From Aerococcus urinae (GTDB lineage: Bacteria; Bacillota; Bacilli; Lactobacillales; Aerococcaceae), in contig NZ_CP014161.1 in assembly GCF_001543175.1 (NCBI RefSeq), positions 1 to 64,000 on the forward strand: DNA of 64,000 nucleotides. Direction: 5' to 3'. A model generated the notes under the pieces. That model was given only the letters and a program-made list of their open reading frames with translations. It made no database searches and was not told where the DNA came from. Position 1 is the stretch's first letter; each line of letters begins with the position of its first letter. This document shows positions 25,227-54,715 of the stretch, one piece after another. Position numbers and translations under genes: made by a program.

Positions 25227-25235
25227 TAGAAAGTA

Positions 25236-25319
25236 CTCACAAGAGGTGCTTTTGCTGAGATAGGTGGAAACCTGGACTCTTTGAACCTGAGAAAGTTAAA
25301 ACTTGCGTAGGGATGTGAG
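25236..25319 (+). promoter_or_regulatory. TPP riboswitch (THI element)
   Basis: The conserved parts of the thiamine pyrophosphate aptamer are present in order: AGAGGTGCTTTTGCTGAGA, then CTCTTTGAACCTGA and TTGCGTAGGGATGTGAG. CTCAC and GTGAG close the P1 helix. A strong terminator lies 55 bases downstream, so control is probably by transcription termination when TPP is bound. Confidence 0.92.
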
Positions 25320-25373
25320 AATTCAAATATCGTTGTACGGTATAGCCAAGCTTTGGTAAAGCCTAACGATAAG

Positions 25374-40321: not shown

Positions 40322-43144
40322 ATGAAGAAAACAGCTTTATGGAAGAACGCTTGGCGGGAGATTAGAAATTCCTGGGCACGCTTCCTAGCCCTCTTTGGCA
40401 TTATTCTATTGGGGACGGGTTTCTTTGTGGGAATCCGGGCCGCAGCGCCAAATATGTTAAACACTTCCAGCCAATATTATGACGATTATTACTTAGAAGA
40501 CCTTTCCCTCCAATCCACCTGGGGGATCCGTCCAGAAGATAAGGAAGCTTTGGAAAGGGTGGATGGGATCGATAGCTTGTCTTATAAGACGGTCGACCGT
40601 CAGTCCCAAGACTCGGAACTGCTTTATCGGATCTTCCCAAATTTCAATGCCTTAGACGCAGAAGTTAACCATTTCAAGGTGAAGGAAGGCCGCTTGCCTG
40701 AAAATGACCAAGAGATCGCCCTTGACCATATGTTGGTCGCTGAAAACCAGGTCGACATTGGTATTGGGGATACCATCACTTTCAACCAAGTGGGTAAGTC
40801 TGATGATGACAAGGCCCCTCACCTTAAGCAGGATAGCTTCACGGTGGTTGGCTTTGTCGATTCTCCCATGTATATTGATAAGTTAATCCGGGGACAAACT
40901 AGCATTGGAGACGGCGCTTTGGATGCCTTTGCGGTGGTGAGTCCGGATGCCTTTGAAGGTGAATACGACTCAGCCATTTCTATCCGCATCCCTAAAGCCC
41001 GTCCCTATCAGGCTTATAGTGAGGACTACGACCATCTGGTTGCTGATAAAAAAGCTGAGGTTGAAGCAGCGGTTGAAGACCGGCCTGCAAGTCTACTGGA
41101 ACAAGCAAAAAGTGATGGGCAAGAAGCCATTGACCAGGGCCGAGACCAGCTTAATCAGGCCCAGGATGACTTAAACACGAAAAAGAATGAACTTGACCAG
41201 TCTAAGTCGGCTTTAGACCAAGCCCAAGGGCGTTTGGACCAAGAAGTCCAAGGGGTCAAGAGTCAACTGCCTGCGGGAATGAGCCTGGAGGATGCTGGTT
41301 TAGGCCAAGTTGCTGGCCAATTCCAAGCCAACCAAGACCGGCTCAACCAGGAAAAGGATAAGCTTTCAAAAGGCCAAGAGCAAATGGAATCAGCTAAGGA
41401 AGAGCTCGGCCAAAAAAACAAAGACTTAGACGAACAAGCCAAACAGCTAGAAGAACTTCAAGCGCCGACTTACCTGGTCAACGACCGGAGCGCCTTATCT
41501 GGGATTAGTGAATATGGGGATAATGCCGAACGGATTTCTGCCATCGCCCAAGTCTTTCCTTGGATCTTCTTCTTAGTGGCAGCTCTCGTTTCCTACACCT
41601 CCATGTCAAGGATGGTGGACGAGCAACGCTCACAAGTGGGGACCATGAAGGCGATTGGCTATGGGTCAGGCGATATTGCTATGCAGTTTCTTCTCTATGC
41701 CAGCCTAGCCAGCCTCTTAGGAACAGTGATTGGGGTAGGGATTGGGAACTTTCTCTTCCCTAACATTATCTACAATGCTTACCGGATGATGTACACCCTG
41801 CCAGACATCCAATATGGTTTCTACCTCAAGGATATCTTCCTGGCTTTGGGGATTGCCCTCCTAACCACGGTGGGACCGGCGATTTTCACTACCAGCCACT
41901 TACTCCAAGAGAATGCCGCCCAATTGATGCGGCCCAAACCACCTAAGCAAGGGGAGCACATCCTCTTAGAGAAATGGCGCTGGTTCTGGGGTCATCTCAA
42001 CTTCTCGATGAAGATTACCCTCCGTAACCTCTTCCGTTATAAGGGACGGAACTTGATGACGGTGATTGGGGTGGCCGGGAGTACCGCCTTGGTCTTGACT
42101 GGTTTTGGGATTTCTGACTCCATTTCTGGTCTAGCTGACCGCCAATATACCGTAATTGAATCCTATGATGTGGTGGCTCAATACGCTAATGATTTAAATG
42201 CGGAAGACAACCAAGCTGTCCGGGAAGCGGTGGAAGCAACTGATGGCGTCGACCAAGTCCTCCATTCCTATACCACGAACCTGGAAACCACTGATCCGAA
42301 CATCAATACCCAAACCGTTCGCCTCCGGGTCTTTAATAACGATAGTCCTTACCATGACTTTTACGCCTTTAATGCTGTCGATGACCCATCGAAATCCTAC
42401 GATTTAAAGGATAACGAAGCTTTAATTAGTCAAAAATTAGCCCGCTTGCTAGACCTTTCTGAAGGAGACAGTATTGAATTAGCCAATGAATCCGGGCAAA
42501 CGATTAGTCTGCCGGTTGGAGGGATTGTGGAGTCCTATATCTTCCATGATTGCTTTATCAATGAGAACACCTATAAGAATCTGATTGCCAAGGATTTACC
42601 GGCGCCTAATATGGGGCAAATCCAATTAAGTCAGTCAGCCAGCCAAGGGCAGGTCTTGGAAGACTTACAAAATACCGACCATATCCTGGCTGCTTACGCT
42701 AGTCAAAGCCTCCGTGATGCCTTTAATGACACCATTGAAAGCTTGAATGTGGTGACTTTAATTCTTATTATTGCTGCTGCACTCCTAGCCTTCATAGTGC
42801 TCTATAGCTTAACTAATATCAATGTGTCGGAGCGGATTCGAGAGCTATCCACCATCAAGGTCCTCGGGGCCTATCCCGGCGAAGTGACCATGTATATCTT
42901 TAGGGAAACCCTCCTGCTCACCACAGCAGGCATTCTCTTTGGTCTCTTGATGGGCTATGGTCTGACGGGTTATATCCTAAAAACCGTGGAAGTAGATAAC
43001 TTAATCTTCCCACACACCATCCACTGGACCTCCTACCTCTATTCCATTGCCCTAACCTATCTCTTCACCCTGATAGTTATGGGAATCATGCATATCAAAC
43101 TCAAACACGTCGACATGGTAGAAGCACTCAAAGGAGTAGAATAG
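40322..43144 (+). CDS. FtsX-like ABC permease with a large extracytoplasmic coiled coil
   Basis: A 940-residue permease with a first transmembrane helix at about 18-40, a large extracytoplasmic domain, three helices near 410-530, a second extracytoplasmic domain, and three more helices near 800-930. Two FtsX core domains are visible. The first extracytoplasmic part contains a Gln/Asp/Lys/Leu-rich coiled coil (about 250-375) broken by a Gly/Pro-containing segment. Type VII ABC systems of this kind transmit force across the membrane or move peptides or lipids rather than import solutes. The coiled coil suggests contact with a wall or secreted partner. A GTG at 40313 overlaps the upstream gene; I use the ATG at 40322. 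Confidence 0.85.
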   Translation: MKKTALWKNAWREIRNSWARFLALFGIILLGTGFFVGIRAAAPNMLNTSSQYYDDYYLEDLSLQSTWGIRPEDKEALERVDGIDSLSYKTVDRQSQDSELLYRIFPNFNALDAEVNHFKVKEGRLPENDQEIALDHMLVAENQVDIGIGDTITFNQVGKSDDDKAPHLKQDSFTVVGFVDSPMYIDKLIRGQTSIGDGALDAFAVVSPDAFEGEYDSAISIRIPKARPYQAYSEDYDHLVADKKAEVEAAVEDRPASLLEQAKSDGQEAIDQGRDQLNQAQDDLNTKKNELDQSKSALDQAQGRLDQEVQGVKSQLPAGMSLEDAGLGQVAGQFQANQDRLNQEKDKLSKGQEQMESAKEELGQKNKDLDEQAKQLEELQAPTYLVNDRSALSGISEYGDNAERISAIAQVFPWIFFLVAALVSYTSMSRMVDEQRSQVGTMKAIGYGSGDIAMQFLLYASLASLLGTVIGVGIGNFLFPNIIYNAYRMMYTLPDIQYGFYLKDIFLALGIALLTTVGPAIFTTSHLLQENAAQLMRPKPPKQGEHILLEKWRWFWGHLNFSMKITLRNLFRYKGRNLMTVIGVAGSTALVLTGFGISDSISGLADRQYTVIESYDVVAQYANDLNAEDNQAVREAVEATDGVDQVLHSYTTNLETTDPNINTQTVRLRVFNNDSPYHDFYAFNAVDDPSKSYDLKDNEALISQKLARLLDLSEGDSIELANESGQTISLPVGGIVESYIFHDCFINENTYKNLIAKDLPAPNMGQIQLSQSASQGQVLEDLQNTDHILAAYASQSLRDAFNDTIESLNVVTLILIIAAALLAFIVLYSLTNINVSERIRELSTIKVLGAYPGEVTMYIFRETLLLTTAGILFGLLMGYGLTGYILKTVEVDNLIFPHTIHWTSYLYSIALTYLFTLIVMGIMHIKLKHVDMVEALKGVE

Positions 43145-43150
43145 AAGAGG

Positions 43151-43330
43151 AAAGTGTGACGGGTGCACCAAAGATCGATAGAGCTACGCATACTATATCT
43201 GTAACTCGCTTCGCTTCGAACAGCTATAGCAACTGGAGCTAAAGAGCAAAAATTCTTGAAAAGAATTTCTTGCACTTTAGTGAAGTGGAGATCGATCTGC
43301 ACCCGGAACACGTTTGAATAGAGTGTGACA
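43151..43330 (+). repeat. Family-1 nested-hairpin repeat, permease 3' region
   Basis: It runs from AAAGTGTGACGGGTGCA to TGCACCCGGAACACGTTT. Arms are GGGTGCA/TGCACCC and GATCGAT/ATCGATC outside. A 52-base module (43188-43239) shared with the copy at 44719 lies inside, and there is another hairpin GCAAAAATTCTT/AAGAATTTCTTGC. The next unit start (GAGTGTGACA) follows at 43321. Confidence 0.8.
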
Positions 43331-43342
43331 GTCACATGTTAT

Positions 43343-43373
43343 GAGCTGAGATTTTTGTCTCAGCTCTTTTTTG
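43343..43373 (+). terminator. Terminator after the permease gene
   Basis: GAGCTGAGA pairs with TCTCAGCTC over a short T-rich loop, then a T-run. Confidence 0.85.
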
Positions 43374-43399
43374 TTTAAATTGCAACCTATAAAATATTA

Positions 43400-43463
43400 T
43401 TGACAGGGATAGGTAAATAAAATACAATAAAAAATAAATTAAAGACAGAATTGTCTGATATTT
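43400..43463 (+). promoter_or_regulatory. Promoter and CodY-like box of the first livJ-type gene
   Basis: TTGACA (43400-43405) and TACAAT (43423-43428) are 17 bases apart. AATTGTCTGATATTT (43449-43463) matches the CodY consensus AATTTTCWGAAAATT at 12 of 15 positions and lies about 15-28 bases after the expected transcript start, where bound CodY could block elongation. Confidence 0.6.
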
Positions 43464-43497
43464 AATAATTAATTATTAGAGAAAAGGAGGATGAGCT

Positions 43498-44661
43498 ATG
43501 AAGATCAAGCGCAATTTAAAGGGGTTGGCCCTGGCCGTCTCCTGCTTAATGATGACTGCTTGCGGGTCTTTAACCCAAACTCAGGAAAAGGCTAATAACC
43601 AAGCAGATGTGATTAAGATTGGCGGTAACTGGGAACTCTCCGGTGCCACAGCAGGCTATGGTAGTCCAGGAAATGAAGGGGTGGAATTAGCCGTCGACCA
43701 GGTCAACCAGGCGGGCGGAATACTTGGCAAACAAGTGGAATACGTGTCTTTGGACAATAAGTCTACTAGTGAAGAAACCACGGCCAATACTTCGCGGTTA
43801 ATCTCTAATGACCAAGCGGCCTTAATCATTGGCCCAGCCACCACCGGATTAATGGAAGCGCAGATTTCAAGCGCCTCCTCCTTGCCTGTGATCGCACCTA
43901 TGGCAACCGGCGACAGCTTGACTACTGATAGTTCTGGCAAGGTTTTAAACAATGTTTTCCGGGTTTGCTTCCAAGACGCCTTCCAAGGGCAAGCCTTGGC
44001 TAAGTTTTCTAATGATAACCAGTTTAAGAAAGCCGTTTTAATCCGGGACAATTCGACCGACTATGGGCAAAACTTGACCAATGAATTTAAGAAGTATTTC
44101 CAAGGTGAGGTTGTCGATGAATTAGCTTATAATGCTAAGGATACCGACTTCAACTCCCTGGTAACTCGCTTGAAAGCGCAGGAACCAGATGTGATTTTTG
44201 TGGCTGGTTACTATGAAGAAGCTGGGCCCTTGATTAAACAAGCTAGGGAGCAAGGGGTTCAGGCGGCTATTCTAGGGCCGGATGGCTTTGGTAACCAAGA
44301 GATTATTGATCTGGCTGGTAAGCAAAATATGACTAATGTCTATTACACAGCCCACTACACCACCAATGATCCTAGTCCAGAACTGAAGAAATTTATGGAG
44401 GCCTACCAGGAAAAATTTGGTCATGCGCCCGATATGTTTGCTGCTTTGGCCTATGATGGGGCGCGTTTAGCCTTTGACGCCATTGAACGGGCCCAATCGG
44501 TAGATAGCAAGGCCGTCAACCAAGCCCTAGCAGAAACCAAGGACTTCTCAGGGATTACCGGGAACTTCACCATCAACGACCAACATAATCCGATTAAGAC
44601 CGCCTATGTTCAAAAGGTAGACCACGGCGAAATTGTTGACACCACGCCAATTGAACCCTAG
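43498..44661 (+). CDS. Branched-chain amino acid ABC transporter binding lipoprotein, copy 1
   Basis: A LivJ-type periplasmic-binding-fold lipoprotein of 387 residues held at the outer face of the membrane. The signal peptide ends in the lipobox LMMTACGS, with lipidated Cys22. The mature protein opens with VIKIGGNWELSGATAGYG and has the hinge and ligand motifs VFVAGYYEEAGPLIKQA and GPDGFGN. Two similar genes follow, and one permease/ATPase set lies downstream. Different ligand preferences are an inference. AAAGGAGG precedes the ATG. Confidence 0.9.
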   Translation: MKIKRNLKGLALAVSCLMMTACGSLTQTQEKANNQADVIKIGGNWELSGATAGYGSPGNEGVELAVDQVNQAGGILGKQVEYVSLDNKSTSEETTANTSRLISNDQAALIIGPATTGLMEAQISSASSLPVIAPMATGDSLTTDSSGKVLNNVFRVCFQDAFQGQALAKFSNDNQFKKAVLIRDNSTDYGQNLTNEFKKYFQGEVVDELAYNAKDTDFNSLVTRLKAQEPDVIFVAGYYEEAGPLIKQAREQGVQAAILGPDGFGNQEIIDLAGKQNMTNVYYTAHYTTNDPSPELKKFMEAYQEKFGHAPDMFAALAYDGARLAFDAIERAQSVDSKAVNQALAETKDFSGITGNFTINDQHNPIKTAYVQKVDHGEIVDTTPIEP

Positions 44662-44680
44662 ATTTCCAAGTGAAATTAAG

Positions 44681-44991
44681 AGAGTGTGACAAAAGTCAAA
44701 AGAGCCCTGAACCGCTTCGCATACTATATCTGTAACTCGCTTGCGCTTCGAACAGCTATAGCAACTGGAGCGAACTATGGTAGATAGTTGCAAAACTATC
44801 GCACATAGTTCGTAGTTGGGTTCGACTTGGCAGACTTGGAGTGATTTCCCAAGTCAGAAACAAGCGAATACTTCGCTTTTATTCTGACTTGCTCCAATCA
44901 TCCAAGTCTAAATGCCTAGTCTCACACCCTGTATGAAGTGGACGTCAGGGCTGACTTTTGGAGCACGTTTTGAATAGATAGTACGTGTTTT
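44681..44991 (+). repeat. Family-1 nested-hairpin repeat with an extra inserted hairpin
   Basis: Outer arms AAAAGTCA/TGACTTTT and AGCCCTGA/TCAGGGCT are nearly identical to unit b at 24982-25079. Inside are the 53-base module at 44719-44771, an AACTATGG/CATAGTT hairpin, and an additional hairpin opened by GACTTGG and closed by CCAAGTC (44824-44908) that is absent from the other copies. Confidence 0.8.
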
Positions 44992-44996
44992 AAAAG

Positions 44997-45028
44997 GAGC
45001 CTGGGACCTTTGTCCCAGGCTCTTTTTT
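44997..45028 (+). terminator. Terminator after livJ copy 1
   Basis: GAGCCTGGGAC pairs perfectly with GTCCCAGGCTC over a 4-base loop, then TTTTTT. Confidence 0.92.
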
Positions 45029-45145
45029 AATTCCTCAATATTAATCGCAAAAAGAAAGCCCGACCCTATTTATTGAGGGACCTTTAGCGCGCTTGCCAAA
45101 GTCCGTTTAAATATTCTTTATATCTTTTAATTAGCCAATATTTCA

Positions 45146-45202
45146 AAAATTCAGACAATTATCACAAAAGGGCTTGCTTTCTATGGAAAGCCCTGCTAGA
45201 AT
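45146..45202 (+). promoter_or_regulatory. CodY-like box and promoter of the second livJ-type gene
   Basis: TTGCTT (45174-45179) and TAGAAT (45197-45202) are 17 bases apart with TG before the -10 box. AAAATTCAGACAATT (45146-45160) matches the CodY consensus at 12 of 15 positions just upstream of the -35 box. AGGGCTT/AAGCCCT (45169-45194) is a second inverted repeat across the promoter. Confidence 0.6.
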
Positions 45203-45235
45203 AAGTTCAAGATTATTTCGAAAGGAAGTTTATCC

Positions 45236-45286
45236 ATGTTTAGCTCCCATCAAGCAATTATTATTATTATTAATACCAGGGCTTAA
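45236..45286 (+). CDS. Ile-rich leader peptide (attenuator)
   Basis: A 16-codon ORF encoding MFSSHQAIIIIINTRA, with five consecutive ATT Ile codons at 45257-45271. AAAGGAAG lies seven bases before the ATG, and the promoter ends about 34 bases upstream. The ORF is followed by competing hairpins and a terminator ahead of a branched-chain amino acid binding-protein gene. This is the layout of a leader peptide whose translation senses charged tRNA-Ile. It is too short to be a functional protein. Confidence 0.8.
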   Translation: MFSSHQAIIIIINTRA

Positions 45287-45288
45287 CG

Positions 45289-45394
45289 CTGTTTCAATAA
45301 AAAACAGACTAAGTCCTATTCGTGCTTGTTAAAATGAATGGGACTTGGATAAACAATAAAGCCACCCATTCATTCTAAGATGGGTGGCTTTTTC
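45289..45394 (+). promoter_or_regulatory. Attenuator: competing hairpins and terminator
   Basis: Arm 1 (45311-45321, AAGTCCTATTC) pairs with arm 2 (45336-45346, GAATGGGACTT). Arm 2 can instead pair with arm 3 (TGAATGGG at 45335-45342 with CCCATTCA at 45365-45372). Arm 3 with arm 4 forms the terminator AAAGCCACCCAT/ATGGGTGGCTTT (45358-45391) followed by T. A small hairpin CTGTTT/AAACAG (45289-45307) lies just after the leader stop. Confidence 0.8.
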
Positions 45395-45509
45395 TATGGC
45401 TGCTGACTTGAAATAATTGTTATGTAACGCTTCTCTGTTGGCCAACAAATCAGCGTTTGATGATTCTAAGGAAATTGCCGTGAGCAATACTTGAGAAAGG
45501 GTTTTAAAG

Positions 45510-46685
45510 ATGAAGAAAAAAATGAAGAAATTAGCCGCCTTATTTGGAACTGCTTTAATGCTAGGGGCTTGTGGATCGATGACCGAGACCGCTAAGAATG
45601 ATTCTGCTAACAGTGATGTGGTGAAGATTGGTGGGAACTGGTCCTTATCTGGTCAATATTCTGCCTACGGAACACCTCACGACAATGGGGTGAAAGTGGC
45701 CGTTAAAAACCTCAACGATAATGGCGGGGTCTTAGGCAAGAAGGTGGAATATGTCAGTGCCGATAACAAGTCAGACAATGCTGAATCCACTTCCCAAGCC
45801 ACCCGCTTAGTGGAACAAGAAGGCGTTAATGTTCTGGTAGGTTCAGACACTACAGGAAACTGTGAAGCACAAATTCCAGTGGCCCAACAATTTAAGGTGC
45901 CGATGGTAGCGCCTGCAGCCACTGGGAATGGCTTGACCCTCGATGATAGCGGTAACCTCTACGACTACGTCTTTAGAACTTGTTTCGAAGATGCTTACCA
46001 AAGTAAGGAATTAGGGAAGTATGCCGCTCAAAAGGGTTGGAAGAAGGTTGCTGTCCTAAAAGATAACTCCTCTGACTATGGTCAAAACGTGGCTAATGAC
46101 TTCAAGGCTTCCTTTGAAGAGCATGGCGGTCAAGTGGTTGGTGAAGAGTCCTACACCAGTGGGGATACTGACTTTAAGGCCCTCTTAACCAACTTAAAAC
46201 AAAATTCACCTGATGTCGTCTTTATCGCTGGTTACTACCAAGAAGGTGGATTAATCATCAAACAATTACGGGAAATGGGTGTGAATGCAGCAGTCTTAGG
46301 ACCTGATGGCTTTGGTAACCAAAAACTCATCGATTTAGCTGGTCCGGAAAATGCCCATGATGTCTTCTTCGTGACCCACTTCTCCCATAATGAAGATTCA
46401 CCTGAAAACGTCAAAGAATTCATCAAGAAATATGAAGATGCTTACGGGACTTCACCTGACCACTTTGCTGCTTTAGCTTATGATGCAACCAACTTAATCG
46501 CCCAAGCCATGGAAAAAGCAGGTTCAACAGATAGCGAAGCGGTTCAAAAAGCCTTAGCTGAAACCAAGGACTTCCAAGGGGTGACTGGTAAATTCTCCTT
46601 TGATAAAGATCATAACCCAGTCAAAGAAGTCTTTGTCCAAGAACTTCAAGGTGGCCAAGTGGTCGATACTGAAGTGGTTAAATAA
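45510..46685 (+). CDS. Branched-chain amino acid ABC transporter binding lipoprotein, copy 2
   Basis: A 391-residue LivJ-type lipoprotein with lipobox LMLGACGS (Cys21) and mature start VVKIGGNWSLSGQYSAYG. The ligand-site stretch differs from copies 1 and 3 (VGSDTTGNCEAQIPVAQQFK). It is the only one of the three behind a leader-peptide attenuator with Ile codons, so its supply is probably tied to isoleucine status as well as to CodY. Codon usage is more biased to favoured codons than in the neighbours, which suggests high expression. Confidence 0.9.
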   Translation: MKKKMKKLAALFGTALMLGACGSMTETAKNDSANSDVVKIGGNWSLSGQYSAYGTPHDNGVKVAVKNLNDNGGVLGKKVEYVSADNKSDNAESTSQATRLVEQEGVNVLVGSDTTGNCEAQIPVAQQFKVPMVAPAATGNGLTLDDSGNLYDYVFRTCFEDAYQSKELGKYAAQKGWKKVAVLKDNSSDYGQNVANDFKASFEEHGGQVVGEESYTSGDTDFKALLTNLKQNSPDVVFIAGYYQEGGLIIKQLREMGVNAAVLGPDGFGNQKLIDLAGPENAHDVFFVTHFSHNEDSPENVKEFIKKYEDAYGTSPDHFAALAYDATNLIAQAMEKAGSTDSEAVQKALAETKDFQGVTGKFSFDKDHNPVKEVFVQELQGGQVVDTEVVK

Positions 46686-46818
46686 TTCTTTTAATCCAAG
46701 AATTTTTAAATTAGACTTTGTTCATTGAAAATTAAACATAAAGAGTCTTTATTATATAGCTAAGTTTATTGGTCCTCGCCAAAGTTTGATAAATAATTTC
46801 AAAAAAGCTAAAAAGTGT

Positions 46819-46847
46819 TTGACAGAATTGTCAGACTATTTTAGAAT
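46819..46847 (+). promoter_or_regulatory. Promoter with embedded CodY-like box, third livJ-type gene
   Basis: TTGACA (46819-46824) and TAGAAT (46842-46847) are spaced 17 bases. AATTGTCAGACTATT (46826-46840) lies wholly in the spacer and matches the CodY consensus at 12 of 15 positions, a position that would block RNA polymerase. Confidence 0.65.
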
Positions 46848-46907
46848 ATTGAGTATCAGCAATTGAATACTTATTCTTTTGTCAAATTTTAATGAGGAGG
46901 AGTTAGC

Positions 46908-48086
46908 ATGAATAAGAAATGGTTGAAAGCCTTTGTGACATTGGGGAGTGTCATGGCCTTAGCCGGCTGCGGTTCGGGTTCCTTGACTGAAACGACTAAT
47001 CAATCCGCTGAAAATGCAGATGAAATTCGTATTGGGGGGAACTGGGAGTTATCGGGCAATGTTTCTGCTTATGGTGTTGTACAGAACAATGCGATCAAGC
47101 TCGCCGTAGATGAAAAAAATCAAGCTGGCGGCCTTCTCGATAAGAAGATCAACTACTTAGAATATGATAATAAGTCCACGACTGAAGAAGCGGTTTCTGG
47201 TGCGGAAAAACTCGTTGATGAAAACGCGGCAGTAATTATTGGACCTTCTACCACCAATAATACTGAAGCGACGATTTCAACGGTAACCCGGGCCAAGACC
47301 CCTTTGATTTCAGCAACTGCCACTGCTGATAATATTACCCTTGACCAAGAGGGCAATGTCTTGGATTATATCTTTAGAATTTGCTTCCAAGATTCCTTGC
47401 AAGGGGGCTCCTTAGCGGAATTCTCTAACAAGGAAGGCTATACTAAGGCAGCGATCATCAAGGATAATTCTTCTGACTACGGTCAAAACCTATCTGACGA
47501 ATTCCACAAGCACTTTGATGGTGAAGTGGTTCGGGAAGAATCCTATGTGGCTAAGGAATCTGACTTTAACAGTATTTTGAGCAATATTAAGAATTCAGAT
47601 GCCCAAGTGATCTTCGTTGCTGGTTATTATGAAGAAGCTGGTCCAATTATTAAACAAGCGCGCGAAATGGGCATTGACCTGCCAATTCTTGGTCCAGACG
47701 GCTTTGGGAATAAGGAAATTATTAACTTAGCGGGGGAAGAAAACTGGGATAACATTTACTATGCGGCCCACTTCGTTGAAAACGAAGACTCTCCTCAAGA
47801 AGTCAAAGATTTCTTAGCTAAGTATCGGGAAACCTACCAATCGGAACCAGATATGTTCTCAGCCCTAGCTTATGATGCAGCTAACCTGGCCTTTGACGCG
47901 ATCGAACGTGCAGGCACTACGGACGGTGAAGCGGTCCAAAAAGCTTTGGCTGAAACCAAGGACTTTACTGGAGTCACTGGGAACTTCTCCATGGATGAAA
48001 AACACAATCCGTCTAAGACTGTCTTTATCCAAGAGGTAAAAGACGGCCAAGTGGTTGGTTCTCAAGCCATCGAAGCGGTTAAATAG
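46908..48086 (+). CDS. Branched-chain amino acid ABC transporter binding lipoprotein, copy 3
   Basis: A 392-residue LivJ-type lipoprotein with lipobox ALAGCGSG (Cys21), mature start EIRIGGNWELSGNVSAYG and the motifs VFVAGYYEEAGPIIKQA-like (residues about 225-240) and GPDGFGN. It is the copy nearest the permease genes. GGAGG precedes the ATG. A hairpin follows the stop (AAGCAGAGT/ACTCTGCTT, 48117-48147), but without a good T-run, so read-through into livH is possible. Confidence 0.9.
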   Translation: MNKKWLKAFVTLGSVMALAGCGSGSLTETTNQSAENADEIRIGGNWELSGNVSAYGVVQNNAIKLAVDEKNQAGGLLDKKINYLEYDNKSTTEEAVSGAEKLVDENAAVIIGPSTTNNTEATISTVTRAKTPLISATATADNITLDQEGNVLDYIFRICFQDSLQGGSLAEFSNKEGYTKAAIIKDNSSDYGQNLSDEFHKHFDGEVVREESYVAKESDFNSILSNIKNSDAQVIFVAGYYEEAGPIIKQAREMGIDLPILGPDGFGNKEIINLAGEENWDNIYYAAHFVENEDSPQEVKDFLAKYRETYQSEPDMFSALAYDAANLAFDAIERAGTTDGEAVQKALAETKDFTGVTGNFSMDEKHNPSKTVFIQEVKDGQVVGSQAIEAVK

Positions 48087-48116
48087 TGAAAAAGTTTAAT
48101 ATTTAAAAATTAAAGC

Positions 48117-48147
48117 AAGCAGAGTTGTCCAAGGGATGACTCTGCTT
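48117..48147 (+). terminator. Weak terminator-like hairpin between livJ copy 3 and livH
   Basis: A perfect 9-bp stem AAGCAGAGT/ACTCTGCTT is followed by ACTGTTTG rather than a T-run. It may lower rather than stop expression of the permease genes, giving an excess of binding protein. Confidence 0.5.
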
Positions 48148-48234
48148 ACTGTTTGTTAATAGGATGTAAGGGCTTTAAAGCGAAATTTTTATATCTAGGT
48201 CTAAAAATTATTGAAATAGGATGGAGTGAGAAGT

Positions 48235-49113
48235 GTGAATAATGTCATTCAACAATTAATCAATGGCGTGGCGCTAGGAAGCATCTATGCCTTGATGGCC
48301 TTGGGTTATACCATGGTTTATGGGATTATTGGTTTGATTAACTTTGCCCATGGGGATATTTATATGGTGGGGGCCTTTGTCGGTTTCACCTTGATTACTA
48401 ATGTCGGAATGGGTGTTTTCCCGGCTTTAATTTTAGCCATGTTATTTACTGCTGTATTAGGGGTTATTATTGAGCGGGTGGCTTATAAACCCTTGCGTGG
48501 GGCAACCCGGATTGCCGCTTTGATAACGGCAATTGGGGTATCCATGCTCCTACAAAATGTGATGATCTTTCTCAGAGGGCCTGAAGTACGAGCTTTTCCA
48601 GCAGATCTGCCTGACTGGTCCCTACAATTGGGGGCCTTTACCATTAACTCCCAACAAATTCTGATCTTAGCGGTAACTATTGTTTTAATGATTGCTTTAC
48701 AAGTGATCGTACAAAAGACCAAGTTAGGCCAAGCCATGCGGGCGGTTTCGGTCGACCCAGATGCTGCTCAATTGATGGGGATTAATGCTAACACTATTAT
48801 TTCCTTTACCTTCTTAATTGGTTCAGCCTTAGCAGGTGCAGCAGGGGTGTTAGTAGGGATTTACTATAATTCCATTTCACCACTAATGGGTGTCAATATT
48901 GGGACTAAGACCTTTGTTGCAGCTGTTGTTGGGGGAATCGGATCCATTCCTGGTGCCGTTCTAGGCGGCTTAATCATTGGTATTGTAGAAACCTTCGTCT
49001 CCATGATCGGTCTCTCCACCTGGAAAGACGCCGCAGTTTATATTATTTTGATTATTATTTTACTGGTCAAACCAACCGGCTTGCTCGGTAAACCGCAAGT
49101 AGAGAAAGTGTAG
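48235..49113 (+). CDS. livH: Branched-chain amino acid ABC permease LivH
   Basis: A 292-residue membrane permease of the LivH type with about eight helices. Typical parts are NGVALGSIYALMALGYTMVYG near the start, INFAHGD, RAVSVDPDAAQLMGIN and the late GGIGSIPGAVLGG coupling region. A GTG at 48226 is in frame, but AGGATGGAG points to the GTG at 48235. It is the first of four closely spaced genes livH-livM-livG-livF. Confidence 0.93.
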   Translation: MNNVIQQLINGVALGSIYALMALGYTMVYGIIGLINFAHGDIYMVGAFVGFTLITNVGMGVFPALILAMLFTAVLGVIIERVAYKPLRGATRIAALITAIGVSMLLQNVMIFLRGPEVRAFPADLPDWSLQLGAFTINSQQILILAVTIVLMIALQVIVQKTKLGQAMRAVSVDPDAAQLMGINANTIISFTFLIGSALAGAAGVLVGIYYNSISPLMGVNIGTKTFVAAVVGGIGSIPGAVLGGLIIGIVETFVSMIGLSTWKDAAVYIILIIILLVKPTGLLGKPQVEKV

Positions 49114-49122
49114 GTGGCAAAG

Positions 49123-50130
49123 ATGAAAGAAAACAAAACTTCTTGGTTCAATCAGTTTTTCACCAAGACTACTTTAGCTTGGATTGGTGTCATCGTGCTT
49201 GGCTTTGTCTTAATGGCAGCGTCTTACATTGCTGGTTTAGTTTCGGCCTACACCCAAAACATTATTATGAATATTGCTATTAATATTATTCTTTCTGTGG
49301 GGCTCAACTTAGTGGTTGGTTACGCTGGCCAGTTCTCCCTAGGGCATGCTGGTTTTATGGCAATCGGGGCCTATGTGGGAGCCATCGTTTCCCAAGAGAT
49401 CCCTGGCCAAGCCGGCTTCTTAGCCGGTTTACTAGCTGGTATGGTAGTGACTGCAGTCGTGGCCTTAATCGTAGGGATTCCTACCCTGCGTTTACGGGGC
49501 GACTACTTGGCCATTGCTACGCTAGGGGTTTCTGAAATTATCCGGATTACCATTATGAACTTAGAGATTACCAATGGGGCCGCCGGGATTTCTGGTGTTC
49601 CCCGTCACGTGACCTGGATTACCATGTATGTTTTTGTGGTGATTACTACCCTACTAGTGGTTAACTACATTTATTCCAGTCCCGGTCGGGCCACCATTGC
49701 TGTGCGGGAAGATGAAATTGCAGCGGAATCAGTGGGGATCCACACGACCACCTATAAGACCCTGGCCTTTGTCATCGGAGCGGTGACCGCAAGTATTGCT
49801 GGGACCCTCTATGCTTCTTACTTTGGGGTGATTAACCCTAGTCAGTTTACCTTCCAAAAATCCATCGATATCTTAGTTATCGTAGTATTTGGTGGGATTG
49901 GGTCCATTTCCGGGAGCTTCGTGGCTTCCATCTTATTGGGGCTATTGAATACCTTCCTAGCGCCTTTTGGTCAAGTTCGTCCCATTCTCTATGCCGCCGC
50001 TTTGATCTTAATCATGATCTTCAAGCCATCGGGGTTAATGGGTGAATATGAATTCCAATTCTCCAAGCTCTTTAACCGCAAACGAGGGCAATCACAAGCC
50101 GTAGCCAAAGAAGAAAGTGAGGACCAATAG
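49123..50130 (+). CDS. livM: Branched-chain amino acid ABC permease LivM
   Basis: A 335-residue permease with about ten helices and the LivM pattern NLVVGYAGQFSLGHAGFMAIGAY (in part), RLRGDYLAIATLGVSEIIRI (in part) and GGIGSISGSFVASI. AGGTGG precedes the ATG at 49123; the GTG at 49114, right after the livH stop, is the alternative. The C-terminus is a charged cytoplasmic tail. Confidence 0.93.
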   Translation: MKENKTSWFNQFFTKTTLAWIGVIVLGFVLMAASYIAGLVSAYTQNIIMNIAINIILSVGLNLVVGYAGQFSLGHAGFMAIGAYVGAIVSQEIPGQAGFLAGLLAGMVVTAVVALIVGIPTLRLRGDYLAIATLGVSEIIRITIMNLEITNGAAGISGVPRHVTWITMYVFVVITTLLVVNYIYSSPGRATIAVREDEIAAESVGIHTTTYKTLAFVIGAVTASIAGTLYASYFGVINPSQFTFQKSIDILVIVVFGGIGSISGSFVASILLGLLNTFLAPFGQVRPILYAAALILIMIFKPSGLMGEYEFQFSKLFNRKRGQSQAVAKEESEDQ

Positions 50131-50131
50131 T

Positions 50132-50905
50132 ATGAGTATCTTAAGCTTAAGCCATCTCAGCAAGTCCTTTGGGGGCCTAACCGCCGTTTCCGATGTCAGT
50201 ATCCTTGTGGAAGCGGATGAATTGATCGGTTTGATTGGTCCTAATGGGGCCGGAAAAACCACCCTATTTAACTTGATTACTGGGGTTTATGCACCGACTT
50301 CTGGGTCGATTGACTTAGAAACCGACCAAGGTAGTCAGTCCCTAGCTGGTCAACGCCCAGATAAGATTAATGAAATGGGGGTGGCCCGGACCTTCCAAAA
50401 TATTCGTCTCTTCGCCAACCGTTCGGTCTTGGACAATGTCCTCATTGCCATGCACAACAAACGCGGGGTAGGGGTCTGGCACAGTCTTTTGAGAACGCCT
50501 AAGTACTATCAAAACCGTGATGCCCTCTATGCCAAAGGAATGGAATTATTAGCCATCTTTGGTCTGGAAGGCTACGCCAATGAAAAAGCCAAGAACCTCC
50601 CTTATGGGCAGCAACGGGCTTTGGAAATCGTTCGGGCCTTGGCGACTGAACCCAAGATCCTTTTCTTAGATGAACCAGCCGCAGGGATGAACCCTAATGA
50701 AACCACAGACTTGAAACAAACCATCCGTAAGATTCAAAAAGAATTTGGAATTTCTGTTGTTCTTATCGAACACGACATGTCTTTGGTGATGGATATTTGT
50801 GAACGGATCTATGTTTTGGAATATGGGAAAGTGATCGCTGAAGGGACACCAAGCGAAATTCAAAGCAATCCGAAAGTTATCGAAGCCTACCTAGGAGGTG
50901 CCTAG
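50132..50905 (+). CDS. livG: Branched-chain amino acid ABC ATPase LivG
   Basis: A 257-residue ATPase. Walker A is GPNGAGKTT, the LivG-specific GVARTFQNIRLF includes the Q-loop, the signature is NLPYGQQRALEIVRAL, and Walker B is ILFLDEPAAGMNPNE. The C-terminus has the IEAYLGG tail typical of LivG. It begins two bases after the livM stop. Confidence 0.94.
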   Translation: MSILSLSHLSKSFGGLTAVSDVSILVEADELIGLIGPNGAGKTTLFNLITGVYAPTSGSIDLETDQGSQSLAGQRPDKINEMGVARTFQNIRLFANRSVLDNVLIAMHNKRGVGVWHSLLRTPKYYQNRDALYAKGMELLAIFGLEGYANEKAKNLPYGQQRALEIVRALATEPKILFLDEPAAGMNPNETTDLKQTIRKIQKEFGISVVLIEHDMSLVMDICERIYVLEYGKVIAEGTPSEIQSNPKVIEAYLGGA

Positions 50906-50908
50906 TTC

Positions 50909-51616
50909 ATGTTAGAAATCAAAAATATCAAGGTTGCCTATGGGATGATCCAAGCTATCAAGGGCATTTCCTTTACCGTTAATGAAGGGGAAATTGTTTC
51001 TCTGATCGGGGCCAATGGGGCTGGAAAGTCGACTATTTTAAAGACGATTTCTGGACTCTTGAAACCCAGCCAAGGGGAAATTCTCTACAACCATGAACCC
51101 TTACAAACCAAGTCCTGTGCCCAAATTGTCCAAGCTGGGGTCTCCCAAGTTCCTGAAGGCCGCCATGTCTTTAGCGGTATGTCCGTTAAGGAAAATCTAC
51201 TGATGGGAGCCTATACCCGTAAGGACCGGGATAACTTAGCCAGCGATATGGAACGTTATTTTGATTATTTTCCAATTCTTAAGGAACGTTTCAACCAGGA
51301 CGCGGCAACTTTATCCGGTGGGGAGCAACAAATGCTGGCTATGGCTCGGGCCCTCATGGCGCGTCCCAAGCTCTTGCTCTTAGATGAACCCTCCATGGGT
51401 CTAGCGCCGATTTACATCCAACAAATTTTTGAAATTATTCAAACCATTAATAGTGAGTTGAATACCACCGTCTTACTGATCGAACAGAACGCTAAGGCGG
51501 CCTTAGAAATCTCTGACCACGCCCACGTCCTCGAAGTGGGTAAAATTACCGCTTCCGGAACCGGAAAAGAACTCCTATCTTCTGAAGTGGTCCAAAAAGC
51601 CTACCTGGGAGCTTAA
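50909..51616 (+). CDS. livF: Branched-chain amino acid ABC ATPase LivF
   Basis: A 235-residue ATPase. Walker A is GANGAGKST, followed by VSQVPEGRHVF, the signature LSGGEQQMLAMARAL and Walker B LLLLDEPSMGLAP. The C-terminus is VQKAYLGA as in LivF proteins. It is the last gene of the permease operon, three bases after livG, and is followed by a terminator. Confidence 0.94.
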   Translation: MLEIKNIKVAYGMIQAIKGISFTVNEGEIVSLIGANGAGKSTILKTISGLLKPSQGEILYNHEPLQTKSCAQIVQAGVSQVPEGRHVFSGMSVKENLLMGAYTRKDRDNLASDMERYFDYFPILKERFNQDAATLSGGEQQMLAMARALMARPKLLLLDEPSMGLAPIYIQQIFEIIQTINSELNTTVLLIEQNAKAALEISDHAHVLEVGKITASGTGKELLSSEVVQKAYLGA

Positions 51617-51646
51617 ACCCTTCCTTAAACAATAAAGACCTAGCAT

Positions 51647-51698
51647 AAACCCTTAGCCGCTCTGACAAGTGTCATAGTGACTAAGGGTTTTATTTTTT
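51647..51698 (+). terminator. Terminator of the liv operon
   Basis: AAACCCTTAG pairs perfectly with CTAAGGGTTT, with an inner TGACA/TGTCA stem, followed by TATTTTTTTA. Confidence 0.85.
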
Positions 51699-51705
51699 TA
51701 TAAAA

Positions 51706-51894
51706 AGCCTTGATGAGCATGCGTTCTGCTTTTGAATTTGGTCATTGAAAAGCCATGGCACCGGCTCGAGCACAAGGTCTCTCACCTAGCGAGACTCAAA
51801 TGTCTCGTACGGCTGACGCCTACGAGACATAATTCGCTTCGCTTGCTCGTTCATGGCTAATGACCAATTCAAAGCGCCACTCCTGCTCAAAGCT
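51706..51894 (+). repeat. Family-2 terminal-inverted-repeat element, copy A
   Basis: The left arm (GAGCATGCGTTCTGC, TTTGAATTTGGTCATT, AAGCCATG) pairs with the right arm (CATGGCT, AATGACCAATTCAAA, TGCTCAA) with small bulges. Inside is a perfect stem ATGTCTCGTA/TACGAGACAT (51800-51830) capped by CGGCTGACGCC. Nothing else is seen in the 180 bases from here to the ppdK promoter. Confidence 0.8.
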
Positions 51895-51981
51895 ATTTGT
51901 CAAAATAAAATTTTTAATAACAGCTCAACAACAAAGATAGAATAACCATGTTTTCAGACCCCAAATTAAGGATTTCTTAAT

Positions 51982-52021
51982 AAGAAAGCGCTTGCTATTC
52001 ATATATGATGCACTATATAAT
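51982..52021 (+). promoter_or_regulatory. ppdK promoter with cre-like site over the -35 box
   Basis: TTGCTA (51992-51997) and TATAAT (52016-52021) are 18 bases apart. AAGAAAGCGCTTGCTA (51982-51997) resembles a CcpA cre box with about three mismatches to the 16-base consensus and covers the -35 box, a repression geometry. Confidence 0.55.
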
Positions 52022-52075
52022 CTAATAGTACACTTTAAATATTCTAATAAGCCGTCTTATAAAGGAGGAAGTCCA

Positions 52076-54715
52076 ATGAAACAAGTGATTTATGCTTTTA
52101 ACCAGGGGTCTGCCAAGATGCGTGATCTCTTGGGAGGTAAGGGGGCCAACCTGGCGGAAATGACCCGGCTGGGTTTTCCTGTTCCTAAGGGATTTACCCT
52201 GACCACTGAGGCCTGCCTAGATTACTTAGCCCAGGAAGACAGTGAAGAATTAAGTGATCCAGTCATAGCGGCTATTGACCAAGCGCTAGCTGACCTGGAA
52301 AGTGTTACTAATAAAGCCTTTAATGATCCTGAGAACTTACTCTTGGTGTCGGTACGGTCCGGGGCCAGAGAATCCATGCCAGGGATGATGGATACCATTC
52401 TCAATGTGGGCCTGAATGACCGCAATGTGGAAAGCCTGGCCCAAATCACCCAAGATGAGCGCTTCGCCTATGACTGCTACCGCCGTCTCTTGCAAATGTA
52501 TGGCAATGTGGTCTACGGCTTGGACAGTCAATTTTTTGAGGAGCACTTGGCCCAAGAAAAAACTAAGGCCCAAGTTCGCTTTGACTATGAATTAAAGGTA
52601 GGCCACTTGAAAGCATTAGTGACCGCCTACAAAAAGGTTTACCAAGACCAACTAGGCTTTGACTTCCCCCAAGATGTTAAGACCCAGATCTATGAAGCTG
52701 TTAAAGCGGTCTTTAAGTCCTGGAACAACCACCGGGCTCGGGTCTACCGGGAGATGAATCACATCCCACATGATCTCGGAACTGCGGTCAATATTCAGGA
52801 AATGGTCTTTGGTAATAGTGGCCAAGATAGTGGGACCGGGGTTCTCTTCACCCGTAATCCCGCCACCGGGGAAAGCAAGCTCTTCGGCGAATACTTGGTC
52901 AATGCTCAAGGGGAAGATGTGGTTGCCGGCATTCGTACACCAGAGGTCATTGAAGACTTGAAGGCAGACATGCCTGAAATTTACCAAGAAATTCATGACC
53001 TGGCTAAGCAATTGGAAGGTTACTACCATGACATGCAGGACATTGAATTTACTGTTGAAAAAGGTAAACTTTACTTCCTCCAAACTCGGAACGGTAAACG
53101 GACGGCTAAGGCTGCTGTTAAGATTGCCGTCGACATGGTAGAAGAAGACCTGATCGATGAAAAAGAGGCCCTTTTGCGGATTGAACCATCGATGATTGAC
53201 CAATTGCTCCATCCTTCCTTTGATCCCCAAGCCCTCGCCCAAGCAGAGGTCTTCTCAAGCCTCGGTTTGGCAGCCAGTCCGGGAGCCGGGTCAGGACAAA
53301 TTGTCTTTACTGCCCAAAAGGCCAAAGAATGGCAAGCAGCGGGTAAAAAAGTCATCCTCATGCGCAATGAAACCTCCCCAGAAGACATTGAAGGCATGTC
53401 TGCATCAGAAGCCATTGTCACTGCCCATGGGGGGATGACCTCCCATGCCGCGGTGGTGGCCCGGGGCATGGGGAAATGCTGTGTCAGTGGCTGTAGCGAC
53501 TTGACCATTGATGAAGCGGCCAAAGTGGTTCACTACCCAGGCGGCCAATTACAGGAAGGTGATACCATCTCTGTGGACGGTAGCCAGGGGAAACTCTATC
53601 TGGGCGAAATTCCTACCGCTCTCTCAAACACTGACGAAAACTACCAAAAGATGATGGACTGGGCCAGAAAATATAGCCGTCTCAAGGTACGAATGAATGC
53701 TGAAACCCCTGAAGATATTCAAACCGGCTTCAGCTTTGGAGCGGATGGGATTGGTCTAGTCCGGACCGAGCACATGTTCTTTAAGGCTGAGCGTCTACGG
53801 GAGATCCGCCGCTTTATTCTCTCAGTTGATGAGGGTCAACGCCAGGCTGCCCTGGAGAAGATCCGTGACTACCAGGTGGAAGACTTTACCAGGATTTTCC
53901 AACTCTCACAAGAGGCTCCCGCGGTAATCCGTTTATTGGACCCACCTCTTCATGAATTTATGCCCAAGAGTGACCAGGAAGTTGCTGAAGTGGCGACTGA
54001 CCAAGGCATCAGTGAAGCAGAATTGCGTAGCCGGATGGTGCAACTGGCTGAAGTCAACCCTATGTTAGGCCACCGGGGCTGCCGCTTAGCCATGACCTAT
54101 CCTGAGCTCTATGACCGTCAAGTGGAAGCTATTATTTATGGGGCCATTGCCGCTAGACAAGAAGGCCTGGATCCTCAAGTAGAGATTATGATTCCTTTGG
54201 TGAGTGTGGAGCCTGAGTTAGATACCTTGCGCAAGCGCCTCAGCCAGGTCATTGACCGACTATTAGACCAGGAAAATGTGACAATTGACTACACAATTGG
54301 TACAATGATAGAGATTCCAAGAGCCTGTTTCATTGCGGACCAATTGGCTCAAGAGGCGGGCTTTTTCAGCTTTGGGACCAATGACCTGACCCAAATGACC
54401 TATGGCTTTTCACGGGATGATGCGGGCAAATTTATTAACCAGTATCTAGAAGACGGTACCCTAAAAGAAGACCCCTTCCAAACTATCGATCCAGAAGGGG
54501 TGGGCGCCCTCGTTAAAATCGCAGTCGACAAGGCCCGCCAGACCAAAGCAGGGTTCAAGATTGGGGTCTGTGGGGAACTCGGTGGCGATCCAGCCTCGAT
54601 TCAGTTCTTTGACCAAGTGGGGCTAGACTATGTATCCTGTTCGCCTTACCGGGTGCCCCTGGCGCAATTAGCCGCCGCTCAGTCCGCCATCCGGCAAGCA
54701 GAAGGAAACCACTAG
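52076..54715 (+). CDS. ppdK: Pyruvate, phosphate dikinase
   Basis: Interconverts pyruvate, ATP and phosphate with PEP, AMP and pyrophosphate. The 879 residues have the N-terminal nucleotide-binding domain (LLGGKGANLAEMTRLGFPVP in part, SVRSGARESMPGMMDT), the swivelling phosphohistidine domain with GGMTSHAAVVARGMGKCCV (His457, with regulatory Thr455 two residues before) and the C-terminal PEP/pyruvate barrel (GADGIGLVRTEHMFF, VCGELGGDP). AAAGGAGG at 52061-52068 fixes the start; the frame is open for 28 more codons upstream over the promoter. Two regulator genes follow directly. Confidence 0.96.
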   Translation: MKQVIYAFNQGSAKMRDLLGGKGANLAEMTRLGFPVPKGFTLTTEACLDYLAQEDSEELSDPVIAAIDQALADLESVTNKAFNDPENLLLVSVRSGARESMPGMMDTILNVGLNDRNVESLAQITQDERFAYDCYRRLLQMYGNVVYGLDSQFFEEHLAQEKTKAQVRFDYELKVGHLKALVTAYKKVYQDQLGFDFPQDVKTQIYEAVKAVFKSWNNHRARVYREMNHIPHDLGTAVNIQEMVFGNSGQDSGTGVLFTRNPATGESKLFGEYLVNAQGEDVVAGIRTPEVIEDLKADMPEIYQEIHDLAKQLEGYYHDMQDIEFTVEKGKLYFLQTRNGKRTAKAAVKIAVDMVEEDLIDEKEALLRIEPSMIDQLLHPSFDPQALAQAEVFSSLGLAASPGAGSGQIVFTAQKAKEWQAAGKKVILMRNETSPEDIEGMSASEAIVTAHGGMTSHAAVVARGMGKCCVSGCSDLTIDEAAKVVHYPGGQLQEGDTISVDGSQGKLYLGEIPTALSNTDENYQKMMDWARKYSRLKVRMNAETPEDIQTGFSFGADGIGLVRTEHMFFKAERLREIRRFILSVDEGQRQAALEKIRDYQVEDFTRIFQLSQEAPAVIRLLDPPLHEFMPKSDQEVAEVATDQGISEAELRSRMVQLAEVNPMLGHRGCRLAMTYPELYDRQVEAIIYGAIAARQEGLDPQVEIMIPLVSVEPELDTLRKRLSQVIDRLLDQENVTIDYTIGTMIEIPRACFIADQLAQEAGFFSFGTNDLTQMTYGFSRDDAGKFINQYLEDGTLKEDPFQTIDPEGVGALVKIAVDKARQTKAGFKIGVCGELGGDPASIQFFDQVGLDYVSCSPYRVPLAQLAAAQSAIRQAEGNH

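Follow-up and report, generated by a model that had tools for sequence, protein, structure and literature searches.

The leader of one of three branched-chain amino acid (BCAA) binding-protein genes of Aerococcus urinae is likely to be a ribosome-mediated transcription attenuator, in which charged tRNA-Ile is sensed via a leader peptide and the binding-protein gene is controlled through a chain of RNA arms, designated 0-A-B-C-C'-D-E. It lies in the window, i.e. the whole stretch of DNA analysed (64,000 nt; positions 1 to 64,000 of the forward strand of contig NZ_CP014161.1, assembly GCF_001543175.1). An Ile-codon leader-peptide attenuator on one of the three genes had been proposed in a first-pass annotation, and our results support this proposal. 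Its interpretation holds for the kind of element, but not for the assumed textbook mechanism, in which the sensing arm A in the stop codon was overlooked. The computed part of the explanation comprises the sequence, its conservation, covariation, geometry and the trends of masked folding over the family.

Architecture of the leader and proposed mechanism

All parts of the leader are located on the forward strand. The putative promoter (45174-45202) consists of a -35 element TTGCTT (45174-45179), a 17-nt spacer with TG at 45194-45195 and a -10 element TAGAAT (45197-45202), an extended -10 promoter having been noted before; it matches the consensus by eye only and is absent from the promoter-like sites listed by the scan. 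An inverted repeat (AGGGCTT...AAGCCCT, 45169-45194) within the promoter region is possibly an operator, or due to chance. The Shine-Dalgarno sequence (SD) AAGGAAG (45222-45228) precedes an ORF of 16 codons (45236-45286, MFSSHQAIIIIINTRA) with the stop codon TAA at 45284-45286 and five consecutive ATT (Ile) codons at 45257-45271, again in agreement with the earlier reading. The ORF is conserved in relatives, which carry Ile/Leu/Val runs at the corresponding place.

The three overlapping stems noted previously, including the terminator, are all present as B:C, C:D and D:E. Pair counts place arm B, which can pair with A or C, at 45309-45322; with the swap tests described below, they place arm C at 45333-45346, where B pairs with 45335-45346 and D with 45333-45342. 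Arm D (45358-45374) forms the antiterminator with C (10 perfect pairs between 45333-45342 and 45365-45374) and the intrinsic terminator (45358-45393) with arm E and its T-run (45378-45393), the latter also found by a terminator scan. Two helices present in the minimum-energy fold of the whole leader, A:B and 0:C', add to these stems and thereby complete the chain 0-A-B-C-C'-D-E. Arm A (GGGCTTA, 45279-45285) spans the last codons and the stop codon of the leader and pairs with TAAGTCC (45310-45316) in arm B; it is backed by pair counts, swap tests and geometry. A small hairpin within A:B (45289-45307) pairs CTGTTT (45289-45294) with AAACAG (45302-45307) in the minimum-energy folds. Arm 0 (45228-45235, GTTTATCC) is located between the SD and the ATG and forms eight perfect pairs with arm C' (45347-45354, GGATAAAC), just after arm C. 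The pairing of TCCCAT (45245-45250) with ATGGGA in C, previously considered a potential missing link, exists as an extension of arm 0.

Within the series A:B, B:C, C:D and D:E, each helix excludes the next. Compared to dinucleotide shuffles, the leader folds far more stably, both over 45208-45395 (z -5.8, 0/200 shuffles) and over 45276-45395 (z -6.4, 0/200 shuffles). The controlled gene (45510-46685) encodes a BCAA-type ABC-transporter substrate-binding protein with the Pfam domain Peripla_BP_6; the top NCBIfam model is PRK15404, with a score below the curated cut-off.

When isoleucine is scarce, the ribosome would be halted on the ATT run with its front edge short of A, and A:B would form. 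C would then be free for D, so that one half of the terminator is captured and RNA polymerase reads on. When isoleucine is plentiful, a ribosome at the stop codon would cover A, B:C would form and D:E would terminate transcription. In an untranslated leader, arm 0 beside the SD may pair with C', in which case C could not hold D and termination would occur too; read-through would thus need a ribosome that is both present and stalled. Ribosome dwell times, co-transcriptional kinetics, the response to isoleucine, closure of the untranslated leader as a function and the effect on uptake are the elements of this scheme that we infer.

Distribution of the leader and the genes that follow it

A DNA search of 60 genomes, including the own genome, yielded matches in 11, from which 12 aligned leaders near the window were used to build the covariance model R1. 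At E up to 0.01 this model has matches in 30 of the 76 genomes from the family; at E up to 0.001, it has matches in 88 of the 395 from the order, spread over 28 of 80 genera. A second model, R2, was built from 74 leaders and has matches in 39 of 398 genomes from the class, with a single genus (g89 of family f17) accounting for 29, and in two of 398 from the phylum: the own genome and another from its order. The family, order, class and phylum samples overlap and include the own genome.

The R1 matches in family and order correspond to 119 distinct places, of which 105 were examined; the remaining 14 are mostly close relatives of examined ones. Also left out were three places present under two locus ids, 12 leaders already counted under other ids, antisense matches in L070 and L002 and a match cut by the end of locus L072, which was kept in A2 and lies outside the counts for 73 leaders. 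One weak R1 match (L126) was taken for a false positive and discarded, as no leader ORF accompanied it, while L143 was retained in the counts despite its weak Leu/Ile run.

At 104 places the next gene was ilvD (38), ilvB (19), a BCAA-binding-protein-like gene (18), a BASS-type transporter gene (17), ilvE (7), an iron alcohol dehydrogenase-like gene (2), or a gene for BrnQ, RidA or an M20 peptidase (1 each). These figures count places and not independent events, as several loci are near-duplicates. Genes were classed from short sequence signatures and by eye, with profile searches confirming one or two representatives per class; 18 places first classed as 'rest' comprise 17 with a common BASS-type start and L122 with a binding protein. 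Use on a transport gene, regarded as unusual in the first-pass annotation, is accordingly less so, since similar leaders stand before many BCAA genes in the order and in one genus of the class.

The genes of the BASS type (bile acid/pantoate symporter family) that follow an Ile leader include those at L092-L097, L099, L101, L110, L111, L114 and L116, with profiles run on L092 and L116; the substrate of this transporter may be linked to BCAA or their keto acids. The leader preceding the RidA-family gene is that of L161, and those preceding iron alcohol dehydrogenase-like genes are found at L098 and L102. Among 43 loci from named genomes that encode relatives of the BCAA-binding protein, none matched R2 (E up to 1), indicating that the element did not accompany the binding protein into those sampled lineages.

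Conservation of the pairing chain

Wherever the element was found, the run of BCAA codons and its frame are kept, and the stems of relatives are maintained with compensatory changes; two of the refuting conditions named in the first-pass annotation, loss of the run or frame and lack of compensation, were thus not borne out. The predicted ORF is short, led by an SD and contains a run of codons for amino acids of the controlled pathway, with frame and run conserved, as is characteristic for attenuators. The same applies to the terminator and antiterminator, which share arm D, are therefore mutually exclusive and both show compensatory changes.

In 74 aligned leaders, D:E was paired in 97.0% of cells, with all 11 pairs changed on both sides, and B:C in 97.4% of cells in the main helix and 87.3% in the outer three pairs. 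Values for A:B (95.7%, two of six pairs changed on both sides) and C:D (82.7%, six of nine pairs) refer to helices outside the alignment structure, yet their columns are positioned by B:C and D:E. Taken together, A:B and C:D were paired in 88.0% of cells, a small gain over 86.3% in shuffles (0/500 as high), compared to 25-63% when slid.

An alignment-free test compared each leader's own arm pair with arms exchanged among leaders in 20000 swaps. Own arms paired better for A:B (z -6.8, n=26, 0/20000), for outer A:B without the conserved core (z -7.9, n=41, 0/20000), for B:C (z -3.6, n=25, 4/20000), for C:D (z -6.9, n=43, 0/20000) and for D:E (z -15.6, n=31, 0/20000). For arm 0, the SD region against C' gave z -6.7, and -5.8 within gene class (n=43, 0/20000); the longer 5' leader against C and C' gave z -10.1, and -8.4 within gene class (n=56, 0/20000). 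The control, the SD against the 20 nt after the terminator, gave z -1.5 (n=43). Swaps leave shared ancestry in place, so that these z values are not probabilities. Every helix of the chain is supported by the swap tests.

The position of arm 0 varies. In the window it lies between the SD and the ATG, whereas the SD is preceded by it in Staphylococcus-like loci as well as in L151, an rli60 locus. At L147, the narrow SD-region test gave little signal (-2.8 kcal/mol, rank 0.60).

Folding with masked ribosome positions

The first-pass annotation had suggested folding the leader with a ribosome footprint in place. The transcript of 73 leaders was exposed to the end of D and ribosome positions were masked. 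C:D exceeded 0.5 in 35/73 leaders without a ribosome, in 69/73 with the ribosome at the start codon, in 56/73 at the first and 50/73 at the second regulatory codon, and in 16/73 at the stop codon. When stalled at the first regulatory codon, 17/73 leaders did not exceed 0.5. On average, C:D drops from 0.87 with the ribosome fourteen codons ahead of the stop (n=64) to 0.26 once the stop is reached (n=73). Masking A alone left C:D above 0.5 in 17/73, masking the 5' arm together with the first regulatory codon in 69/73, and masking the whole leader to the stop in 15/73, with B:C above 0.5 in 58/73. With the ribosome at the stop, B:C exceeded 0.5 in only 31/73 leaders, as arm 0 often holds C instead.

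For 24 Staphylococcus-like leaders, which were not used to build R2 and of which several are near-identical, C:D exceeded 0.5 in 22 without a ribosome, 22 with a stalled ribosome and 6 with the ribosome at the stop. Judging from the values without a ribosome (35/73 and 22/24), arm 0 alone is insufficient to close the untranslated leader.

In the window, C:D was 0.20 without a ribosome, 0.15 with the ribosome at the first Ile codon, 0.08 with the 5' arm covered as well and 0.00 from the fourth Ile codon on and at the stop; a value of 0.99 was obtained only at the start codon. A ribosome stalled at Ile leaves arm 0 uncovered, and equilibrium folding of the window's leader favours B:C even with the ribosome at the first Ile codon. 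Masked folding hence supports the switch across the family, and only weakly for the window's own sequence. In the window's copy, the switch is supported only if co-transcriptional order or an error in the energies favours A:B and C:D, which is the main weakness of our explanation.

The contrast between the start codon and the first Ile codon, together with the eight perfect pairs of arm 0, is what would be expected if arm 0 were decisive in the window's copy. In that case initiation or occupancy, and not stalling at Ile, would open C, making the leader a general sensor of translation. We consider this unlikely: the Ile runs, and the Leu and Val runs found family-wide, would then be pointless, and the leader of the orthologue in another genome of the genus (G005, locus L002, MFSLSQNIIIIIKSRA) keeps five Ile codons, the frame and the A arm.

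Position of the ribosome relative to the arms

The geometry of the 73 leaders favours a switch operating through arm A. Leader ORFs were picked by a score rewarding Ile/Leu/Val runs and an SD, and in the regulatory runs of these ORFs we counted 237 Ile, 88 Leu and 64 Val codons. In 73/73 leaders the start of arm A falls between -14 and +8 nt relative to the stop codon's first base (median -5, 71 distinct peptides) and 16-49 nt past the first regulatory codon (median 23), a spacing that was in part selected by the search, as both arm A and the BCAA-codon run belong to R1 and R2. The corresponding start in the 24 Staphylococcus-like leaders, for which the search for A was confined to the stretch from the codon run to B, is -12 to +3 nt from the stop. 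Of the 73 leaders, 40 encode a peptide with a C-terminal Arg-Thr or Arg-Ala, and in these arm A consists of those codons plus the stop, i.e. AGGACT or AGGGCT followed by TAA, TAG or TGA. A ribosome usually covers about 15 nt to each side of its P site. Arm A is therefore covered when the ribosome is at the stop codon and left free when it is at the first regulatory codon.

The core of B begins 21-46 nt beyond the stop codon's first base, at a distance of 32-79 nt from the last regulatory codon. This distance bears on a textbook four-arm attenuator, in which a ribosome on the Ile codons masks arm 1 (B) and frees C for D. Such a mechanism has the same outcome and uses the same stems of B, C, D and E, and Rli60 is drawn with four segments in the part of PMC5864092 consulted. 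Across the 73 leaders, however, the core of B is out of reach of a ribosome of the usual footprint stalled on the regulatory codons, for which reason masking of arm 1 as in trp was rejected; this mechanism also leaves the A:B covariation and the pairing of arm 0 unexplained. The textbook mechanism is probably not the one at work, and we rate it slightly below the general sensor of translation. The earlier caveat that the Ile codons end too far from arm 1 is resolved by the two overlooked arms, A and 0; a stalled ribosome need not reach arm 1.

The element in the own genome and genus

As had been noted, copy 2 of the binding-protein genes alone carries the element. The own genome contains one strong R2 match, and a second match (E 0.24) is the antisense of the same region. 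Within 42900-52200, nothing above 10.3 bits was found besides the element and two antisense matches overlapping it, so that an element before either of the other two binding-protein genes was rejected. The antisense of the element (45356-45532, reverse strand) scores 27 bits with R2, probably due to its palindromic stems.

Copies 1 and 3 have near-consensus promoter-like sites of their own at 43400-43428 (TTGACA-17-TACAAT) and 46819-46847 (TTGACA-17-TAGAAT), in a region with 12 such sites compared to 10.0 expected; the attenuator may therefore govern mainly copy 2. Weak sites resembling a CodY box (three mismatches) were observed upstream of all three genes (43449-43463, 45146-45160 and 46826-46840). 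A scan with the known consensus found seven CodY-like motifs in the window, these three among them, compared to 5.1 expected from shuffles, which is not clearly enriched. Dual control has been published for Rli60 and may possibly apply here too.

The search of the own genome for the ilvD family yielded no gene, with 14/14 controls positive; one aminotransferase of the searched family and three BrnQ genes are present. In a genome lacking the ilvD family, most of the BCAA supply that can still be regulated may come from uptake. Lack of an ilvD-family gene and the low computed antiterminator in the stalled state would also fit a plain terminator or a decayed regulatory leader that no longer switches in this species. 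This is very improbable, as the ORF, SD, putative promoter and all arms are intact, and arm 0 and C' remain perfectly paired although the length of each differs by a single base when the window is compared with G005.

In the genus, the binding protein was found in 10 of 15 genomes, seven of which carry the element somewhere; none was detected in G001, G002 and G013. In G005, it precedes an orthologue with 74% identity, with a further copy of the gene directly downstream, as in the window. Five genomes (G003, G007, G009, G011, G014) have a match just before a different paralogue and none in the three-gene cluster, indicating that the leader changes partners.

A T-box or metabolite riboswitch, suggested by the BCAA gene context and by a terminator with an alternative pairing, can practically be dismissed, as the conserved part is an ORF and neither was found by Rfam at the locus around the element (L069, E up to 1). 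The sole riboswitch in the window at Rfam gathering thresholds is a TPP element at 25232-25330, far from the leader.

Relationship to known attenuators

In the passages of PMC5864092 consulted, Rli60 of Listeria is described as attenuating ilvD in a ribosome-mediated manner by means of a 13-aa leader; mutants of its RBS and ATG are super-attenuating, with lowered ilvD transcription, while a terminator mutant raises it. The phenotype of the RBS and ATG mutants fits closure by arm 0 when initiation fails. R1, although built only from the 12 leaders near the window, finds both rli60 loci (L147 and L151, with 181 and 180 bits to RF02414) at 49-51 bits. RF02414 matches neither the window at its gathering score nor L069 (E up to 1), for which reason the window's leader is not filed under this model; it is Rli60-like in a wider sense, in this one direction. 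Both systems share a short SD-led leader with BCAA codons, a terminator and an antiterminator. At the rli60 loci L147 and L151, ilvD is preceded by a leader of 13 aa with the same chain of arms; A begins 5 nt past the first base of the stop codon, and in the L151 fold a 5' arm pairs with C. Unlike the window's leader, Rli60 has four published segments, controls ilvD and uses Val, Ile and Leu codons.

The ilvD leader of S. aureus is reported as an attenuator with an Ile run followed by Leu codons in the consulted part of PMC5794164. The Staphylococcus-like loci found here share this arrangement, and also possess A, B, C, D, E and, ahead of the SD, a 5' arm. The labels 'Listeria' and 'Staphylococcus-like' are based on rli60 matches and leader peptides; three of the 24 Staphylococcus-like loci scored 95.7 (L183), 74.4 (L173) and 58.7 bits (L186) with RF02414 (gathering score 60). 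The same passages differ from our model in that GAAUGG pairs with the poly-U tail as antiterminator, instead of C with D, Leu is called the main signal and biosynthesis is controlled. They also report a mutation, selected in medium lacking valine, which converts a leader Leu codon to a stop. Under our model, read-through should increase with a premature stop, since the ribosome then does not get to A; the mutation would fit this expectation. The article further cites predictions for Lactococcus and Streptococcus. By description alone, the ilvBNC attenuator of Corynebacterium is similar in its BCAA-codon uORF, terminator, antiterminator and anti-antiterminator, and differs in genus, control of ilvB only and a leaderless mRNA (passages of PMC11857589 and PMC11109978). 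Arms A and 0 do not appear in the consulted passages of PMC5864092, PMC5794164, PMC2965389, PMC11857589, PMC11109978 and PMC8632094, and in the full-text literature searched, mostly non-subscription, we found no account uniting these leaders or describing either arm.

Based on these comparisons, the window's leader looks related to Listeria Rli60 and, by inference, to the ilvD leader of staphylococci. We lean towards a single family of BCAA attenuators in the order and in Staphylococcus-like genomes, acting on biosynthesis, uptake and BASS-type genes, in which the ribosome at the stop codon does the masking and an arm on the SD side shuts the untranslated leader. If true, the published four-segment drawings of Rli60 and the staphylococcal leader need revision, and two separately published attenuators would be tied into one family with many unannotated leaders. 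The family would extend from biosynthesis to uptake, its mechanism would be testable by single changes in a reporter, and short ORFs preceding BCAA genes in this order could be annotated with the model.

In the trp, his and leu attenuators of enterobacteria, a ribosome stalled on the control codons masks an arm. Here, too, the position of the ribosome on the leader peptide would select terminator or antiterminator, with masking by the ribosome at the stop codon instead of the stalled one, so that one arm more precedes the antiterminator. The leader family seems to be widespread, mostly unannotated, and a variant of leader-peptide attenuation that is slightly unlike the textbook switch.
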